Assembly (NCBI RefSeq): GCF_009933255.1
Contig: NZ_MAEI01000054.1
Span: 375,355 to 439,354 of the forward strand
DNA length: 64,000 nucleotides
From: Enterococcus diestrammenae
Lineage (GTDB): Bacteria; Bacillota; Bacilli; Lactobacillales; Enterococcaceae
Direction of reading: 5' to 3'
This document shows positions 14,852 through 52,010 of this stretch, one piece after another; within the stretch, counting starts at the first letter, position 1, and the number at the start of each line of letters is the position of its first letter. Made by a program: the position numbers and the translations under genes. Below the pieces are notes generated by a model. That model saw nothing but the letters and a program-made list of their open reading frames with translations, was not told the origin of the DNA and did not search any database.

Positions 14852-14863
14852 ACATCAATAACC

Positions 14864-14896
14864 AAAAGCCCTCGACGATGATCGTCGAGGGCTTTT
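14864..14896. terminator. Bidirectional terminator between GDPD and the ComK-like gene
   Basis: A near-perfect 33-bp inverted repeat (arms AAAAGCCCTCGACGAT) has A4 and T4 at its ends, placed between convergent genes. Confidence 0.92.
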
Positions 14897-14903
14897 GATT
14901 TCC

Positions 14904-15878
14904 TCACTCCCTCCCACAAATCTGGCAACGATGTTTCTTATCCGCCAGTTCCATCTCTTGGTGCCACTTACGATGCTTTTCTTGGGCGTGTTCTTCTTTG
15001 CGGACCCAGCTGCGATTGTCGGCGAGGCTGGTGTGGACGCGATAAGTGTCCATCAGCTGGCTGCGGGTGCCGGGGATATGGTAGGTGGTGAGGCCGCCAA
15101 AGATCCGGTTGAGCAGCGGGGTGCTGGGATACTCCAGGTAGCTCATCAGCGGCGTGTCACTGCCGGGAGAGACGGCTTCGTGCATGCGTTTGCGGGCGGA
15201 GTGGATCAGGATGCCCCGGATGATTTGGCTTTTCAGGGTGTCGGGACGCACGGGGCCTTTGAGCATCAAGCCATAGGTGGTGATCAGCAGTTTATTGGCC
15301 TGGGTGCAGTCGTGGTGCCCTTTCGTCAAGTCCTGGGAGTAGTTTTCGATGGTGGCAGGGTTGATCCACAGGCGTTGATTTTCCCAGTGCTCTGAGGGTT
15401 TCAAGGGTATCAGGGTAAAGCGCCAGTTGGCCATCGGGATGTTGTGACTGGCATGGACGCAGTGCATGCCTTTTAGCAAGGTGGCCGCAGCGGAGCGAAA
15501 GGCATTGTCAAAGGCGATATGCTCGTGGTGCTTGAAGGAATCGTTGATGATCTGAGCCTGGGTCCGGTCCAGCAGATGCAGCGAATCGGTGGTGATCACC
15601 AGCTGCAAAGGGGGCTCTCCTAGAAAACGTGGGGCGACTGGCAAAACTGCCAAGAGGAGCTTGCTATGGTCAAACTCGTGCTCCACAGGCAGTTGATTGG
15701 TCATCTGGGAGAGGATCAGGCTATCGATGACCGGCTCGTCGTCGGAGTCGGGTGTGACAGCCGCGCCCCAGTCGAATAAAGAATCGATCAAGGGTAGTAA
15801 CTTGGTCAAGTCATAGGTGTGTTGCCGCATTTGGGGAGCGGGACTATTGATAGGTGTTGCGTGAGTATGATGTTTCAT
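14904..15878 (-). CDS. ComK-family transcription factor, extended form
   Basis: I read this as a distant homologue of the competence activator ComK, which binds AT-rich boxes and switches on DNA-uptake genes in Bacillus. The support is a collinear set of weak matches to Bacillus ComK: LHLLDRTQA to its LQIVDRSCR, a P-x-S-x(6)-WINPATIENY block to its TLSSTRPQCGWI-HVHVKEF block, and TTYGLML-x(11)-SQIIRG to TFSNGKTMEL-x(6)-FENQVYRT. The protein has 324 residues against about 190 for Bacillus ComK. The extra length is an N-terminal domain of about 85 residues and a basic C-terminus ending in CQICG. AAAGGAGA lies 6 bp before the ATG. It is divergent from the DnaD/sigma block. Confidence 0.6.
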   Translation of the reverse strand: MKHHTHATPINSPAPQMRQHTYDLTKLLPLIDSLFDWGAAVTPDSDDEPVIDSLILSQMTNQLPVEHEFDHSKLLLAVLPVAPRFLGEPPLQLVITTDSLHLLDRTQAQIINDSFKHHEHIAFDNAFRSAAATLLKGMHCVHASHNIPMANWRFTLIPLKPSEHWENQRLWINPATIENYSQDLTKGHHDCTQANKLLITTYGLMLKGPVRPDTLKSQIIRGILIHSARKRMHEAVSPGSDTPLMSYLEYPSTPLLNRIFGGLTTYHIPGTRSQLMDTYRVHTSLADNRSWVRKEEHAQEKHRKWHQEMELADKKHRCQICGRE

Positions 15879-15908
15879 AAAAAATCTCCTTTATAGTGTT
15901 GATAGGCA

Positions 15909-15986
15909 GGAAAAGCCGGTGTCAACCACCAAGCATACTCGCGGAAAATCTGCTCCGTGATAAACCGTGGTTGACTGTGCTTTTCC
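15909..15986. repeat. Imperfect inverted repeat upstream of the ComK-like gene
   Basis: GGAAAAGCCGGTGTCAACCA pairs with a right arm reading TGGTTGACTGTGCTTTTCC across about 37 bp. Each arm contains a TTGAC(A/T) hexamer, so the repeat may carry divergent -35 elements. Confidence 0.7.
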
Positions 15987-16126
15987 ATGACCCTCGCAAA
16001 AGTAGATACGCAAACAAATTTCCAAAAAAATCTGTGAACCAGAAAAAAGCGTCACTTTTTATTTTTAACGAAAGCCATTTTGAGGGAGTCCTGGTAGTCG
16101 CGGCAATTTAAAGATGAGAGGGCGGA

Positions 16127-16152
16127 GTCGGCAGCGGTGGCCGGCTTTTTTT
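16127..16152 (+). terminator. Plus-strand terminator with no annotated gene upstream
   Basis: GTCGGC pairs with GCCGGC and T7 follows. It implies a plus-strand transcript starting in the ComK/DnaD intergenic region. Confidence 0.55.
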
Positions 16153-16349
16153 GTGGTCAAAAAGCTTGTCAGATCAAGGCAAAAGCGTTCTTGACGACAA
16201 TAACCCCTAAAGAAAAGCACATCAAATCAAACTAAAGAAAAGGTCCTACTTGCTGGAGATTTCGCTAGCTGATAAAAGCTGCCAGCAGTCTCTGAGGAGG
16301 GAGCAAGAATCGTTAAAAAATATTTTTAAAAAAATTTTTTATTTTTTTT

Positions 16350-16394
16350 GAAATAACTCCCGTGATTTTCGTTGTACTTGTAAAGGGCCAAAAA
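16350..16394 (+). promoter_or_regulatory. Putative alternative-sigma promoter, copy A
   Basis: CGTGATTTTCGTTGTA followed by AGGGCC and an A run aligns with a site before the DUF1659 gene: the core CGTTGTA is identical, 13 of the 20 preceding positions match, and AGG-CC-AAAA recurs at nearly the same distance. No good sigma-A -10 is present. The nearby ComX-like sigma factor is the natural candidate to read it. Confidence 0.45.
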
Positions 16395-16431
16395 TGCGGC
16401 GGCAGCGTTTTGGCAAGAGGAGGACATGCGG

Positions 16432-18318
16432 ATGGTGCGACCAATCAAGCAGGGGCTGGATTATTTCCCGACGGATGTGGCGTTTTTGACGGAGAGCAAG
16501 GTGTGGCTGATCAAGCAAAAGTGTGGGCTGGGGACGATGGATACGCTGATGACCCTCTTGTCCCGTATCTATGGGGAGGAGGGTTACTTCATGCCTTGGA
16601 ATACCGAGGTGTTAGATCTAGTGGCTTATCACGGGCAAGTCCCCCACGAGCAGGTGCTCAATGTGGTGGAAAAAGCGCTAGCGGTGGGCTTTTTTGACTT
16701 GGAAAGCTTTCGGAGGCACCGGATCTTGACGGCAGTGGATATCCAAAAGAAATTCATCACGGCTACTCGGCGGCGCAAAACGGTCTTTCTCAACAAAAAC
16801 TACCTGCTCATCTCCGAATCCGAGCGGGAAAACTTGGTCATCGGGGAGGACGTTGTGGCGCTGGAGGCGGAGGCGCTAGCGACGACAGAATCCCCGGCAG
16901 CCGAGGATTTGGGCCAGCTGGTGCAACAGACAGCGACAGCCATCAAGGGCTACGAAGCCGGGATTGGCGCGTTGTTGCAAGAACCCGCAGTCGGTGAGGA
17001 ATGCGGGTTGCTGGAGGCCGAGACGGGGACCGGCGAGTGGGAAACGGCGCTAGCGGCTGTCGAAATGCCGGAAACGAAGGCTGAGGTGGCAACGGCGGAA
17101 GCGCCAGTCGACAGCCGGGAGGAAGCAGATGCGGTGGCGGTCGGGATGACGGCTGGCGAGAGTGGGGAGGCAGTGATGGCCGCCGAACAGCCAGTAGTGG
17201 TTGAACAGCCAGCGGTGGCAACCAGTGGTGTAACGGGGGCAAAAAGTGCTGCGGAAAGTGCTGCGGAAAGTGCCGAAGTCGAGGCGGTGACCCCGGTGCT
17301 AGTGGAGGCAGAAGTAGTGGTGGCTCAGGGGAAAACACCAGATAAATCAGCCGACAAATTCGCAGAAGCTGAAAAAGCCGTAAGGACGTTGGCAAATGAG
17401 TCAGTGACAAATGAGTCAGTGACAAATGGGCAAGCAAACGGCGGTGAAACGGTGGCAGCAAGGGAAATTGCGGTGGCGGACGGACTGGCGGTAGGCGCAG
17501 ATCGAGGCAAAGCTAGCGAAAAACTAAGTCCTAAGCCGGTAGCCGCGGCTGAAAAAGGGAGTGTAGCTAGCGCGGACGCTGCCTCGGAGCAAGGGGACGC
17601 TAGCGGGGAAAGCGATGATTTAACGAAATGGGTATTACAAAAGACCGCAAGTTTTGCGTTGTGGCAACAACTGTGGGCCGGGCCCAATGTCGCCACCCAA
17701 GCGGAGTTGACTCGTCTATTGCGCAACTATGGTGATGAGTTGGTGGTGGCGGTGCTGAAAATCGCTAGTGCCCAACAGATCGCCAGCTCCTGTAGTTTGC
17801 CTTTTGTCAAGGGCTACCTGAAGCGCTGGCAGCAGGCGGGGGTCACAGATGTGGCCCAGGCCCGGGCATTTGAGCGGGAGTGTCTCCAAAAAAACGAGGC
17901 CAAGCGACAACAGCTGGCAGAAGCCCAACATCAAGCAGCCGAAGCAACCCATAAACGCCGCCGGGAGAGTAAGCAAACAGCGGGCACTAAAGGGGGAAAA
18001 GGGGCTAAAAGTACCAAAGATGTGACTCCCTCAGGCTCACGTCGTTCGTCCACCAGTGGGAAAAATACCACAAACTACGGTCGCGACGGGCGGCCTTATC
18101 GGCGGCAACCGGTGGAAGATTGGGCCGCTTACCCTGATGGCCGGGAGGATCGCCAAGGTTGGCTGAAAATGCTGAAAAAAATGCAACAACTGACACCTGT
18201 TGTGCCGCAAGCTGGGGATAGTTATCAGCTGACGGAGGCGGAGTTGGCGTGGATTCATGATGAGACCCAGGGCTTTGAAGCGGCGGTCTTTCGCCAGGCG
18301 GCAGGGGTCTGGAAGTGA
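16432..18318 (+). CDS. DUF4373-DnaD replication-type protein with long low-complexity spacer
   Basis: The N-terminal 130 residues resemble the DUF4373 (Lin1244/Lin1753-like) domain found at the front of phage replisome organisers. Residues about 135-400 are a low-complexity Ala/Glu/Val spacer with short repeats such as NESVT. Residues about 405-480 look like a DnaD domain, ending near the family's YI/YLKRW helix (FVKGYLKRW). A Lys/Arg-rich stretch and a short C-terminal domain follow. Phage relatives load helicase at origins and are usually 250-350 residues, so 628 is unusual. The start chosen is the second ATG, 8 bp from AGGAGG; the first leaves only 2 bp. No phage genes flank it, and its promoter motif is shared with the DUF1659 unit. 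Confidence 0.72.
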   Translation: MVRPIKQGLDYFPTDVAFLTESKVWLIKQKCGLGTMDTLMTLLSRIYGEEGYFMPWNTEVLDLVAYHGQVPHEQVLNVVEKALAVGFFDLESFRRHRILTAVDIQKKFITATRRRKTVFLNKNYLLISESERENLVIGEDVVALEAEALATTESPAAEDLGQLVQQTATAIKGYEAGIGALLQEPAVGEECGLLEAETGTGEWETALAAVEMPETKAEVATAEAPVDSREEADAVAVGMTAGESGEAVMAAEQPVVVEQPAVATSGVTGAKSAAESAAESAEVEAVTPVLVEAEVVVAQGKTPDKSADKFAEAEKAVRTLANESVTNESVTNGQANGGETVAAREIAVADGLAVGADRGKASEKLSPKPVAAAEKGSVASADAASEQGDASGESDDLTKWVLQKTASFALWQQLWAGPNVATQAELTRLLRNYGDELVVAVLKIASAQQIASSCSLPFVKGYLKRWQQAGVTDVAQARAFERECLQKNEAKRQQLAEAQHQAAEATHKRRRESKQTAGTKGGKGAKSTKDVTPSGSRRSSTSGKNTTNYGRDGRPYRRQPVEDWAAYPDGREDRQGWLKMLKKMQQLTPVVPQAGDSYQLTEAELAWIHDETQGFEAAVFRQAAGVWK

Positions 18319-18636
18319 GGGATTTGGCTGGTGTTTTGGAGGGTGAAGGGTGGTGAGGGGTGCTTTGAGGGGTGCTTTGAGCGGTGCGCTGTTTCTTCAG
18401 GGAGCGGAGTAACTGGGATGTGTAGTGTAAAATGCGTGGATATTTTTGAGGTTTGGTGTTTTGGTGTGTAGTTGAGGAAGAGCGGGGGTTTGTGTGGTTT
18501 GGGGAAGTAGCCGGGGGGAGGGCGCAATGATTATTACGCAGGCGCCACCCACGGAAAACCAACAGCTTCAGAAATAGTACGTTTTGTAAGCGCGACCAAT
18601 TTCTTTGCTACCCTTGGCCTCTATTAATAACAAGAA
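18319..18636 (+). other. G/T-rich intergenic stretch before the sigma-factor gene
   Basis: The plus strand is strongly G-rich with repeated GGGG(T)GCTTTGAG units and four G-runs close enough to form a G-quadruplex. Near its end lies an 18-bp near-palindrome at 18522-18539 of the GCGTAAT-type described in the findings. No gene is evident on either strand. Confidence 0.55.
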
Positions 18637-19158
18637 ATGGGGATGGATATGACAAACGAAGAGATGGAAGAGTTATTTAAAGAGTATCATGGGCTAATGT
18701 TTCGGGTGCTACGCCGTGGGGGTGTTTTTCCTGCACATAGTTATTTTGAAGATTATTGGCAGGAGTTGTCACTGGTCTTGTTCCAGCTGATGAAAGAAGC
18801 GCCGGATCGGATCGGCTTTTTGACAGCTTACAATGAAAGCTGGTTGTTTAGCCATTTGTTGTGGAGGCTATCAGATATTCGCCGCTACCAGACCCGCCAC
18901 GTCAAAGAAGAAGTGCTGGAGCTGCCGGTAGAAGAACTGTTACAAACAACACCAGAGGAACACCTTGATGCCGCCGCCGTTCTAGAGCGAGATGCACTAT
19001 TGATGGGATTTTGGAACTCCTTGAAGCCCAAGCAACAGGGCCAGTTGGAAAAATTATGGCAGGCCAAAAGCCAGAAACCACCGGTGAGTCCGGCTTTACT
19101 TAGTTATTATCGCACCTGTTTACGAAAGATTTTTAAAAAGTTTTGCGAAAACTTTTGA
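18637..19158 (+). CDS. ComX/SigH-like sigma-70 family sigma factor
   Basis: The protein has 173 residues. FEDYWQELSLVLFQLM and LLWRLSDIRRYQTRH correspond to the core-binding and -10-recognition parts of sigma region 2, in the pattern of the competence sigma ComX and of SigH. Residues about 120-170 form a weak region 4 with a helix-turn-helix-like segment and basic tail. It probably directs RNA polymerase to a small gene set. The ComK-like gene 3 kb away and the shared promoter-like motif in front of its neighbours suggest targets. The start is uncertain: three in-frame ATGs lie within 12 bp and none has a strong ribosome site, hinting at tight translational control. Confidence 0.75.
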   Translation: MGMDMTNEEMEELFKEYHGLMFRVLRRGGVFPAHSYFEDYWQELSLVLFQLMKEAPDRIGFLTAYNESWLFSHLLWRLSDIRRYQTRHVKEEVLELPVEELLQTTPEEHLDAAAVLERDALLMGFWNSLKPKQQGQLEKLWQAKSQKPPVSPALLSYYRTCLRKIFKKFCENF

Positions 19159-19200
19159 TAAATCAGCTGTTATTTACGTTGTATATATAGAGGCCTAAAA
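19157..19200 (+). promoter_or_regulatory. Putative alternative-sigma promoter, copy B
   Basis: TTATTTACGTTGTATATA followed by AGAGGCCT and an A run matches copy A near 16350. The TTTACG...A part is reminiscent of the streptococcal ComX cin-box TACGAATA, though not identical. Confidence 0.45.
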
Positions 19201-19413
19201 AAACGAACTTCCAGACGTGAGGGAGGGTGCACCGTCTCTGACGAAAAGCAGTTCACCGGTTCCAGCTTGGGGGAACCGTCGACAGTCAGCCAACTGATGA
19301 TAGGAACAATCTTTCCCTGTCGTGGAGGAAGGTCTGGTTGTCACAATTAACGCAAGCAACCAATAGGGGAAAGCACTGTCTTTTCCCAATCACACATTAT
19401 GGAGGGAAACGTT
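19200..19413 (+). ncRNA. Structured leader of the DUF1659 unit
   Basis: About 210 nt separate the motif from the start codon. The stretch contains several hairpins, among them GGTTCC...GGAACC near 19258-19279 and GGGGAAAG...CTTTTCCC close to the start codon. I do not recognise a known riboswitch class; a structured 5' UTR or a separate small RNA are both possible. Confidence 0.4.
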
Positions 19414-19620
19414 ATGAAAACACATTTAGAAACTGGCTTAGGAATCATGATTCAAGAACCGGATCAAAAGAATTTGACGAAACAATCCTTGAACTATTGT
19501 ATCAAAGACCCTGCTGAAGCTAAGGTTATCAGCCTGATTGATATCTGGGCACCATTACTGCCAGAAGACAGCGATGTCATGAGCGTAGTGGAGACGACCA
19601 AAACCGAATACGTCAAATAA
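19414..19620 (+). CDS. DUF1659-family small protein
   Basis: A protein of 68 residues that matches the small DUF1659 family in size, the short N-terminal strand and the late SLIDIWAPLLP segment. Members of unknown function are commonly encoded beside DUF2922 proteins in Firmicutes, as here. The start is the ATG 8 bp after GGAGGG; an ATG 15 bp upstream overlaps that site. It is the first gene after the shared promoter-like motif and long leader. Function is unknown. Confidence 0.65.
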   Translation: MKTHLETGLGIMIQEPDQKNLTKQSLNYCIKDPAEAKVISLIDIWAPLLPEDSDVMSVVETTKTEYVK

Positions 19621-19667
19621 CAACCAGTAATGGTAGAAAAGTTGTAATGGTAACTTAGGGAAAAACA

Positions 19668-19735
19668 ACTAGGTGCTAGAATCTACTTCATAAACCGTGG
19701 TTTTACCACTGGGGCATCTTCCTAGCACTAGTTAT
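19668..19735 (+). repeat. Long hairpin between the DUF1659 and DUF2922 genes
   Basis: AACTAGGTGCTAGAA pairs with TTCCTAGCACTAGTT, with an inner GTGGTTTTACCAC hairpin in the loop. ATAAACCGTGGTT in the loop also occurs in the repeat near 15960. Without a clean T-run it is more likely a processing or attenuation element than a full terminator. Confidence 0.6.
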
Positions 19736-19781
19736 TTTCAAGAAAAAAGACTTTATTAAAACGAAAATGGAGGAATACAAG

Positions 19782-20006
19782 ATGAAAAAACTACGAATGA
19801 CATTTCTAAACAGCGAAGGCAAAAAACACAATCTCGAACCCCGTTTGGCTGCCACCAATTTGGACGAACCAACTGTGCGAACAGCGATGGAAAGCTTGCG
19901 GGATTTGGCCCTCTTTGAAAAAGACGACGTGAAACTCTACGTCGAAGTCAAAGGCGCCAAGTATATCGAAACCATCGAAACCCCGTTGTTTGAAGATGAA
20001 GTGTAA
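19782..20006 (+). CDS. DUF2922-family small protein
   Basis: A protein of 74 residues starting MKKLRMTFLNSEGKK, the usual DUF2922 opening, and ending with paired beta-type segments (VKGAKYIETIETPLF). Partner of the DUF1659 gene; both families lack a known function. The start is the ATG 8 bp after GGAGG. It is 31 bp before the repeat-bearing membrane protein. Confidence 0.75.
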   Translation: MKKLRMTFLNSEGKKHNLEPRLAATNLDEPTVRTAMESLRDLALFEKDDVKLYVEVKGAKYIETIETPLFEDEV

Positions 20007-20037
20007 CAGACAGTGCTAACGAAGCAGGAGGCCCCAG

Positions 20038-20736
20038 ATGAGACCAATGCAATCCCGATACTCAAAAATACACCCCCCACAAGCCCCCGAGAAATCGGGG
20101 GAACATCCAGTGCAAAGTCAGATACCCAGCGCGGGAGAACATCCGGCACAAAGCTCGGTTCACAGCGTGGGGGAACGTCCGGCACAAAGACCGGTGCACG
20201 GAACGGATGAGCGCCTAGCACAAAGTCCGATGCACAAACCGGAAAAATCATCAATACAACAAGCGGTACCGAAAACCGTACAAAGGATAGGAGAAAATGC
20301 CGCACCGCCCTCGGTAGAAATGCCAGCGCAAAAGCCAAGCTCCTGGTCGCCAAAACTGGCGGCCATGAGGGATTCACTGGATGACGCCATCGCTGCACAA
20401 AAAGCAGACAAAGCCAAGCACAAACGCCAGTTGCGCTGGCTAAATTATCGCTGGTATCGGCATTGGCTCTGGATAGTGACCATGCAAGAAGTGCGCCTCC
20501 GTATCTGGTTTGCCATGCTTTGCTACTTTTGGCAAGGGGTGAGGCGAGATTGGCGGGAGCGGAAGGATCGTATTCGGTGGCAGATGGGAAAATTGCTGGA
20601 GCTTCGTGACATTGCTGGAGTTAGCGGGTGGCCCCGCCGCAGCTTGGTAAGTGATTGGCGATTTATCGCTCTTTTCTTGGCAATGTGGGGCAGTTGGTTT
20701 ATTTGGCTGAGGCATCTGTGGTTGGTGCTTCGCTAG
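20038..20736 (+). CDS. Repeat-bearing basic membrane protein of unknown function
   Basis: I do not recognise a family. Residues 21-68 are four imperfect 12-residue repeats: GEHPVQSQIPSA, GEHPAQSSVHSV, GERPAQRPVHGT and DERLAQSPMHKP. After a Pro/Gln-rich linker the second half is rich in Trp and Arg, with hydrophobic segments near residues 140-165 and 210-232 that could be membrane-associated. AGGAGG lies 6 bp before the ATG. It ends the DUF1659-DUF2922 unit and is followed by a hairpin. The repeat array also reads open in another frame, but only this frame has a ribosome site. Confidence 0.55.
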   Translation: MRPMQSRYSKIHPPQAPEKSGEHPVQSQIPSAGEHPAQSSVHSVGERPAQRPVHGTDERLAQSPMHKPEKSSIQQAVPKTVQRIGENAAPPSVEMPAQKPSSWSPKLAAMRDSLDDAIAAQKADKAKHKRQLRWLNYRWYRHWLWIVTMQEVRLRIWFAMLCYFWQGVRRDWRERKDRIRWQMGKLLELRDIAGVSGWPRRSLVSDWRFIALFLAMWGSWFIWLRHLWLVLR

Positions 20737-51828: not shown

Positions 51829-52010
51829 TCTATGAGCTTCTACTGAGACAGAAACGTAGATATGTAGGATTCGTTGTATCCGAATTAACGCCTGCGGAGT
51901 GTTATAGCAAACGAGAGTAGCGAGCAAATGGCAAAATCGGACACGTAGAAACAGGAAATAAACATAAATCTGACAACATTTATAGTTGGTTAGAAATATT
52001 TATAGATTTT
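51760..52010 (+). ncRNA. Probable omega (right-end) RNA of TnpB
   Basis: The guide RNA of IS605/IS607 TnpB proteins overlaps the 3' end of tnpB and runs to the right end. Here the non-coding 180 bp after the stop is richer in GC than tnpB and can form hairpins. Limits are inferred from position, not from a computed fold. Confidence 0.4.

Follow-up and report, generated by a model that had tools for sequence, protein, structure and literature searches.

ComK is known as a transcription activator and as the master regulator of competence and bistability, and sigma factors of the TcdR/UviA type have holin-like partners. In Bacillus subtilis, rsoA rises 8.7-fold and sigO 3.9-fold in ComK-on cells (PMC7317962), and SigO–RsoA transcribe oxdC-yvrL and yvrJ (PMC8103513). 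Here we describe a cassette in a 64-kb stretch of the Enterococcus diestrammenae genome (the window; the whole genome comprises 3.16 Mb in 54 contigs), in which a ComK-like gene lies divergent to a gene for its own sigma factor, followed by DUF1659 and DUF2922 genes. We propose, with a probability of about 0.5, that the ComK-like activator would switch on the dedicated sigma factor, which would in turn drive DUF1659/DUF2922 and a wall-opening output. Gene order, protein families and shared promoter elements are observed directly; the activation, the promoter use and the physiological result are inferred. The parts belong to known families; what is new is that a ComK-type switch has a dedicated sigma factor and another output. 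No description of the ComK-like–sigma–DUF1659–DUF2922 module or of its spread was found in the open-licence titles and abstract beginnings covered.

The ComK homolog and its sigma factor

The locus was first described in a sequence-only reading, and its six genes are confirmed as open frames, in an arrangement that recurs elsewhere. On the + strand the order is Lin1244_N/DnaD, sigma, DUF1659-like, DUF2922 and membrane-protein gene, with the ComK-like gene divergent on the − strand; the first coordinates of the first four + strand genes below are their likely starts.

14860..14900, − strand: terminator between the GDPD-type and ComK-like genes, a strong stem-loop (19-pair stem) with a T tail
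14904..15878, − strand: 324-aa regulator of the ComK family, carrying an N-terminal extension and, at the C terminus, a long helix (family profile against ComK, linkage, structural model)
16432..18318, + strand: replication-initiator-like protein of the Lin1244_N/DnaD (DnaB_2) type that contains a long low-complexity linker, an optional member (Pfam, homologs)
18609..18619, + strand: TACCCTTGGCC, the place of the promoter palindrome, degenerate and not palindromic in the window copy (sequence reading; strict pattern absent)
18649..19158, + strand: dedicated sigma-70-family factor, about 169 aa, with region 2 and a region 4-like C terminus (profiles, fold)
19155..19185, + strand: candidate sigma-dependent promoter before DUF1659, TTGATA-N16-CGTTGTATA, one base off the TGACA-N16-CGTT of relatives
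19414..19620, + strand: DUF1659-family small protein, 68 aa (relatives match PF07872)
19782..20006, + strand: DUF2922 small protein, 74 aa (Pfam, 2.5e-19)
20038..20736, + strand: membrane protein of 232 aa, basic and rich in tryptophan, whose 12-residue repeats vary in copy number; it occupies the lysin slot of relatives

The assignment of the regulator as a divergent ComK-family protein, for which disappearance of the match in profile searches had been named as a test, stands. In hhalign, the ComK-like family aligned with Listeria-type ComK over 136 columns with a probability of 95.7 (E = 8.5e-9), and in the reverse search a profile of the cassette proteins found Listeria-type ComK at 2e-10, 2e-7 and 2e-8. 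Of 61 ComK-like relatives, 13 reached E ≤ 0.01 with the ComK profile PF06338 (best 6.2e-8), and a search of the whole own genome with this profile gave no match. The alignment behind these comparisons contained 61 of 71 sequences; the other 10 were near-identical or shortened and were omitted. By these profile comparisons, homology to ComK is real at the family level. The predicted structure (pLDDT 85.6) has LytTR DNA-binding domains as its nearest folds, and in a PDB sequence search the ComK-like and sigma profiles brought up no relative with an E-value that could be trusted. Clostridial proteins that align with the enterococcal ComK-like proteins at a probability of 91.5% are probably ComK relatives as well.

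In Pfam, Sigma70_r2 and Sigma70_r4 were each matched by 2 of 28 sigma sequences (26 of 31 locus genes, the window protein and one database protein). The predicted fold ranks among sigma factors in structure comparison. Judged from this fold and the Pfam matches of a few members, the cassette protein is a sigma-70-family factor. Its nearest named relative, from Enterococcus diestrammenae, is 79% identical.

An alternative sigma factor beside a ComK homolog is therefore borne out at this locus, and the further claim that it is ComX/SigH-like is not. Pfam recognizes sigma region 2 at four other places in the own genome, and one of these is SigH, which lies next to yacP on another contig. In a small test set of 36 sequences, the cassette sigma profile scored a clostridial sigma preceding DUF1659 at 2.4e-7 and the own SigH at 0.0045, and the order-wide sigma profile scored three DUF1659-linked clostridial sigmas at 6.9e-15, 3e-10 and 1.3e-7 against 4e-4 for SigH. 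In hhalign, the cassette sigma reached a probability of 6.0 to the own SigH and 86.0 to that of locus L255. Because the DUF1659-linked clostridial sigmas score better than SigH, the cassette sigma groups with the DUF1659 lineage rather than with ComX/SigH.

Conserved linkage is the second line of evidence. The own genome carries another cassette on contig C18 (locus L016, 10009-13972) with dnaD, DUF1659, DUF2922 and a sigma gene containing an in-frame TAG. Within the genus, ComK-like genes occur in 9 of 10 genomes, each adjoining a divergent sigma gene. A family search found them in 53 of 105 genomes at 84 places, 71 of which are covered by the loci fetched together with the window. Among 73 ComK-like genes at 70 places, a sigma gene lies within 4 kb in 32 and is divergent in all 32; DUF1659/DUF2922 lie within 4 kb of 40, and sigma or DUF1659/DUF2922 accompany 53. 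The DUF2922 profile search of the loci gave 38 loci, and the DUF1659-bearing loci include, among named records, Enterococcus asini and Enterococcus sp. CU9D.

The arrangement extends beyond the family. PF06338 matches occur in 97 of 295 genomes of the order, and of the 48 order-level ComK places fetched, 30 have a sigma gene (29 divergent, one not), 15 DUF2922 and 8 DUF1659, the last by our own profile. In the phylum, DUF2922 was found in 147 of 299 genomes; a neighborhood sample of 40 DUF2922 places, best-scoring among the matches listed and taken at wide range, showed DUF1659 at 39, YvrJ at 30, a ComK relative at 14 and an Amidase_2-type gene at 8. That the same divergent layout returns at a second genomic place, and again in further genera, families and orders, is more than chance would give. 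The genes are thus not scattered in relatives, and the idea of one small regulon with conserved linkage holds. The pairing of ComK with a sigma factor, which had been called unusual, is common in the order.

DnaD is a less regular neighbor, present in three genus cassettes (the window, L016 and L017) and 3 of the 48 order loci (L181, L187 and L190). The window protein scored above the Lin1244_N cut-off (2.1e-18, 67.3 bits) and just under that of DnaB_2 (4.8e-4, 20.2 bits; cut-off 22), and the homolog in L187 exceeded both cut-offs. On these matches it is a member of the Lin1244_N/DnaD replication-protein family. DnaD is an optional neighbor, and replication is therefore not the general output; the earlier suggestion of DNA replication or handling is not supported, hydrolases and holins being commoner neighbors.

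As a separate observation, an integrase-like gene (cluster c6, of which one member was read) lies beside the ComK-like gene in L086, L090, L093, L095, L098, L099, L100, L103, L104, L105, L114 and L115, and surface-protein genes adjoin some of these loci.

Candidate operator and sigma-dependent promoter

In the first step of the proposed mechanism, the ComK-like protein, probably a DNA-binding protein of beta-type, LytTR-like fold, would activate the divergent sigma gene. The sigma promoter of relatives bears a palindrome near the presumed transcription start: YACC-N4-GG with a palindromic octamer was found upstream of sigma in 26 of 31 loci (CCGGCCGG in 14, CCTCGAGG in 8, CCGCGCGG in 2 and CCCGCGGG in 2), 30–40 bases ahead of the start codon in nearly all. 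A TATnnT-like −10 element stands 6–8 bases upstream of it, and the palindrome would therefore lie at about +1, an operator position. Its core varies by lineage (GGCC, TCGA, GCGC, CGCG; seen in L058, L059, L061, L065, L068, L073, L076, L080, L085 and others) and is always palindromic where the pattern matched. We regard it as a candidate co-evolving operator.

The pattern YACCGGCCGGAA occurs 13 times in the 10 genus genomes, compared with 4 for the reversed-pattern control, and since 9 of the 13 matches stand at a cassette sigma gene, the site is private to the cassette. In loci without a sigma gene, mainly of the genus g3, the same palindrome stands directly before DUF1659 (CCGGCCGG under the strict pattern in 8 of 15 upstream regions). 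The two copies in the own genome differ: in L016 the palindrome (CACCGGCCGGAA) is intact and the sigma frame interrupted, and in the window the sigma frame is intact and the palindrome degenerate.

Long inverted repeats exceeding all 30 shuffles were found in 8 of 15 g3 DUF1659 upstream regions, 2 of 26 sigma upstream regions and 0 of 5 ComK upstream regions. Those before g3 DUF1659 genes (L089, L093, L094, L096, L098, L109 and L114) differ in sequence and share a layout of C-run, AT-rich segment and GAC; they could be ComK-like sites with paralog-specific sequence. Upstream of the ComK-like gene in the window, an inverted repeat scored 9 against a shuffle maximum of 11 (30 shuffles) and was rejected as not significant.

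In the second step, the sigma factor would read TGACA-N16-CGTT promoters before DUF1659–DUF2922. The element TGACA-N16-CGTT(N)ATA recurs before DUF1659 in sigma-bearing loci. In 13 genomes, TGACA-N16-CGTT had 17 matches and the reversed control 20; the pattern is not enriched, the number is therefore uninformative and only the places are telling. Five of the 17 came from loci used for writing the pattern. Among the 12 independent matches, 6 stand before DUF1659 genes, 2 before holin genes, 2 at duplicate-like or decayed sites and 2 without such a gene. They include a second DUF1659–DUF2922 pair in one genome (G005) and a second DUF1659–DUF2922–GH25 operon in another (G098). In two further genomes (G059 and G060) the promoter lies 21 bases before a holin gene (PF05105, 7e-16 and 4.3e-16) on a contig other than that of the cassette. 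In some species the sigma factor may thus also read an unlinked holin promoter or further DUF1659 operons.

A scan for promoter types found sigma-70 sites to be rarer than chance (2, with 4.9 expected). A motif present at 19228, ahead of DUF1659 in the window, and again ahead of dnaD in the second copy (CACCGTCTCTG...), occurred at only these two places and was dropped. By eye, a short hairpin-like element, GTAAG...CTTAC, was noted just after the DUF1659 promoter, in the presumed 5' untranslated region, in L019, L068, L073, L080 and others.

Output and alternative explanations

In the third step, the partners of DUF1659 and DUF2922 would be a peptidoglycan hydrolase and a small membrane protein (a holin, YvrJ or another), such that the cell wall may be breached or remodeled in a subset of cells; the purpose could be lysis, release of cell contents or protein, or passage of a structure through the wall. 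A hydrolase gene directly follows DUF2922 in 17 of 51 operons (GH25 in 9, Amidase_2 with LysM in 8), counting one tiny intervening frame in L205; six were Pfam-tested, and the others share 56–97% identity with these six. The slot after DUF1659–DUF2922 is taken in clostridia by YvrJ and an Amidase_2 protein. The presence of unrelated enzymes (GH25, Amidase_2) in one slot points to wall cutting as the common function.

In g3 the order is DUF1659, DUF2922, a 127-residue protein and a longer DUF2922 protein. The second DUF2922 gene is followed at several loci (L088, L090, L100, L104, L105, L114 and L115) by a membrane peptide of 30–32 residues; that of L090, the only one tested, resembles Fst toxins at 5.3e-6, under the cut-off. 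Three g3 loci have holin-type and Amidase_5 endolysin-type genes downstream (L094 by Pfam, L086 and L096 by BLAST cluster).

In the window, the third gene of the operon encodes a species-restricted membrane protein and there is no adjacent lysin, and the output would thus be that protein or genes elsewhere. The protein has only five homologs, all 77–89% identical, and its gene contains a 36-base tandem repeat of 2.6 copies (20096-20189); in one homolog (P0008) the repeat region has 12 additional residues. The window DUF2922 protein belongs to PF11148 (69.4 bits, cut-off 25.5). For DUF1659 (PF07872), 25 of 32 relatives match, the best at 9.7e-8. As single window sequences, the ComK-like, sigma, DUF1659-like and membrane proteins had no convincing Pfam match; no window cassette protein exceeded an NCBIfam cut-off, and Rfam gave no match inside the cassette. 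Elsewhere in the window, a RAGATH-18 RNA was found at 51891-51957 on the + strand (70.1 bits, gathering score 44.9).

Besides the lack of promoter enrichment, several observations weigh against the proposed chain. The window copy has lost the palindrome and has no adjoining lysin, holin or YvrJ by which a holin/lysin cassette would be recognized, and L016, with its sigma gene interrupted by a stop, has no gene within 400 bp after DUF2922. No GH25 or Amidase_2 hydrolase lies directly downstream in 34 of 51 operons, where the slot is empty or holds a VanZ, permease or glyoxalase-like gene or a c4 protein. Neither sigma nor DUF neighbors were found for 20 of 73 ComK-like genes, some at contig ends, and a sigma gene lies near DUF2922 in 3 of 40 places of the phylum sample (best-scoring matches listed). 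The clostridial ComK relatives compare weakly with Listeria-type ComK directly (probability 5.9), and PF06338 was matched by 2 of the 5 tested, of which 1 passes the cut-off. DUF1659 has been statistically tied to spore formers (PMC2955703).

The last point and the 34 operons without a hydrolase are also what favors a SigO–RsoA-like programme for general stress or stationary phase, in which the ComK-like protein and the sigma factor would turn on the small cytoplasmic proteins DUF1659/DUF2922 (and YvrJ) to protect or restructure the cell, and the hydrolases would be incidental; the transcription of oxdC-yvrL and yvrJ by SigO–RsoA in B. subtilis fits it too. We consider this explanation unlikely, given that unrelated hydrolase families share a slot both in clostridia and in several families of the order, and that two species have unlinked holin promoters. 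Lin1244_N/DnaD, Phage_holin_4_1 and Amidase_5 are phage-type families, integrase-like genes (c6) lie beside ComK-like genes in several g3 loci, and the cassette might be read as a domesticated or remnant prophage block for lysis and replication under host regulators. This is distinctly improbable: around the window genes, none for structural proteins, packaging or phage regulation was recognized; the flanks are ordinary chromosomal, housekeeping genes, with the GtrA and glycosyltransferase genes adjoining the ComK-like gene also present in G004; and ComK, sigma, DUF1659 and DUF2922 are of host type, their linkage being widespread in the absence of phage genes.

A competence switch, in which the pair would control DNA-uptake genes as ComK or ComX does, has in its favor the ComK homology of the regulator and the presence of comEC in 9 of 10 genus genomes. 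As the sequence-only reading had noted, the locus contains no DNA-uptake genes; comEC lies elsewhere in the own genome. The 17 promoter-pattern matches in 13 genomes include no site ahead of a com gene, and SigH exists separately. The nine comEC stretches, which begin about 1.5 kb before the domain and may miss the operon start, contain no cassette promoter or palindrome; the loose palindrome pattern matched there three times, at sites that are not palindromic (L309, L311 and L312). Control of DNA uptake by the cassette pair is not supported by these searches, and we regard a competence switch as very unlikely. Of the conditional programme built on competence-control parts that had been suggested for this locus, the ComK homolog, the alternative sigma factor and the conserved regulon remain, and the ComX/SigH identity falls away.

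Comparison with known systems

We tentatively suggest that a ComK-type activator with a sigma factor could be an ancient Bacillota switch, whose original output, rather than DNA uptake, would have been a DUF1659–DUF2922–YvrJ/holin–hydrolase module for a programmed opening of the wall; Bacillus competence would be a later recruitment of ComK, and ComK→SigO–RsoA→YvrJ a relic. Should ComK relatives mostly control a sigma factor and a wall-opening module, their retention by many Gram-positive bacteria that are not transformable would have a direct and testable explanation. DUF1659, DUF2922 and YvrJ would gain a function, and competence would be connected with the lysis of some cells in a population and with the release of DNA or proteins.

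The cassette regulator shares with ComK of Bacillus and Listeria (PF06338) a homologous stretch of about 136 columns, in which the conserved P..I, W and L..N/G..S motifs are found. The regulator is longer (250–320 aa as against about 200), with extra N and C termini, and has a divergent sigma partner and a DUF1659/DUF2922 output. The cassette sigma is, like ComX/SigH, a small sigma-70-family factor, but of a separate lineage. Sigma factors of the TcdR/UviA type likewise combine a sigma factor with a holin-type small membrane protein controlling release; here no toxin or bacteriocin gene was seen, and the partners are others.

In the competence-induced fratricins of streptococci (CbpD, LytF), a competence-type regulator also drives a peptidoglycan hydrolase (PMC9910801), but the hydrolase families are others, the sigma factor is ComX, and DUF1659/DUF2922 are absent. 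SigO–RsoA resembles the cassette as a small non-canonical sigma system that is raised in ComK-on cells and is connected with YvrJ, which belongs to the DUF1659–DUF2922–YvrJ cluster. It differs in driving oxdC and in having its sigma factor split into two proteins, whereas the window sigma holds regions 2 and 4 in one chain; the DUF2922 profile PF11148 had no match in the B. subtilis control genome. The rise of sigO and rsoA in ComK-on cells, together with the transcription of yvrJ by SigO–RsoA, offers independent support for a chain from ComK through a sigma factor to an output.

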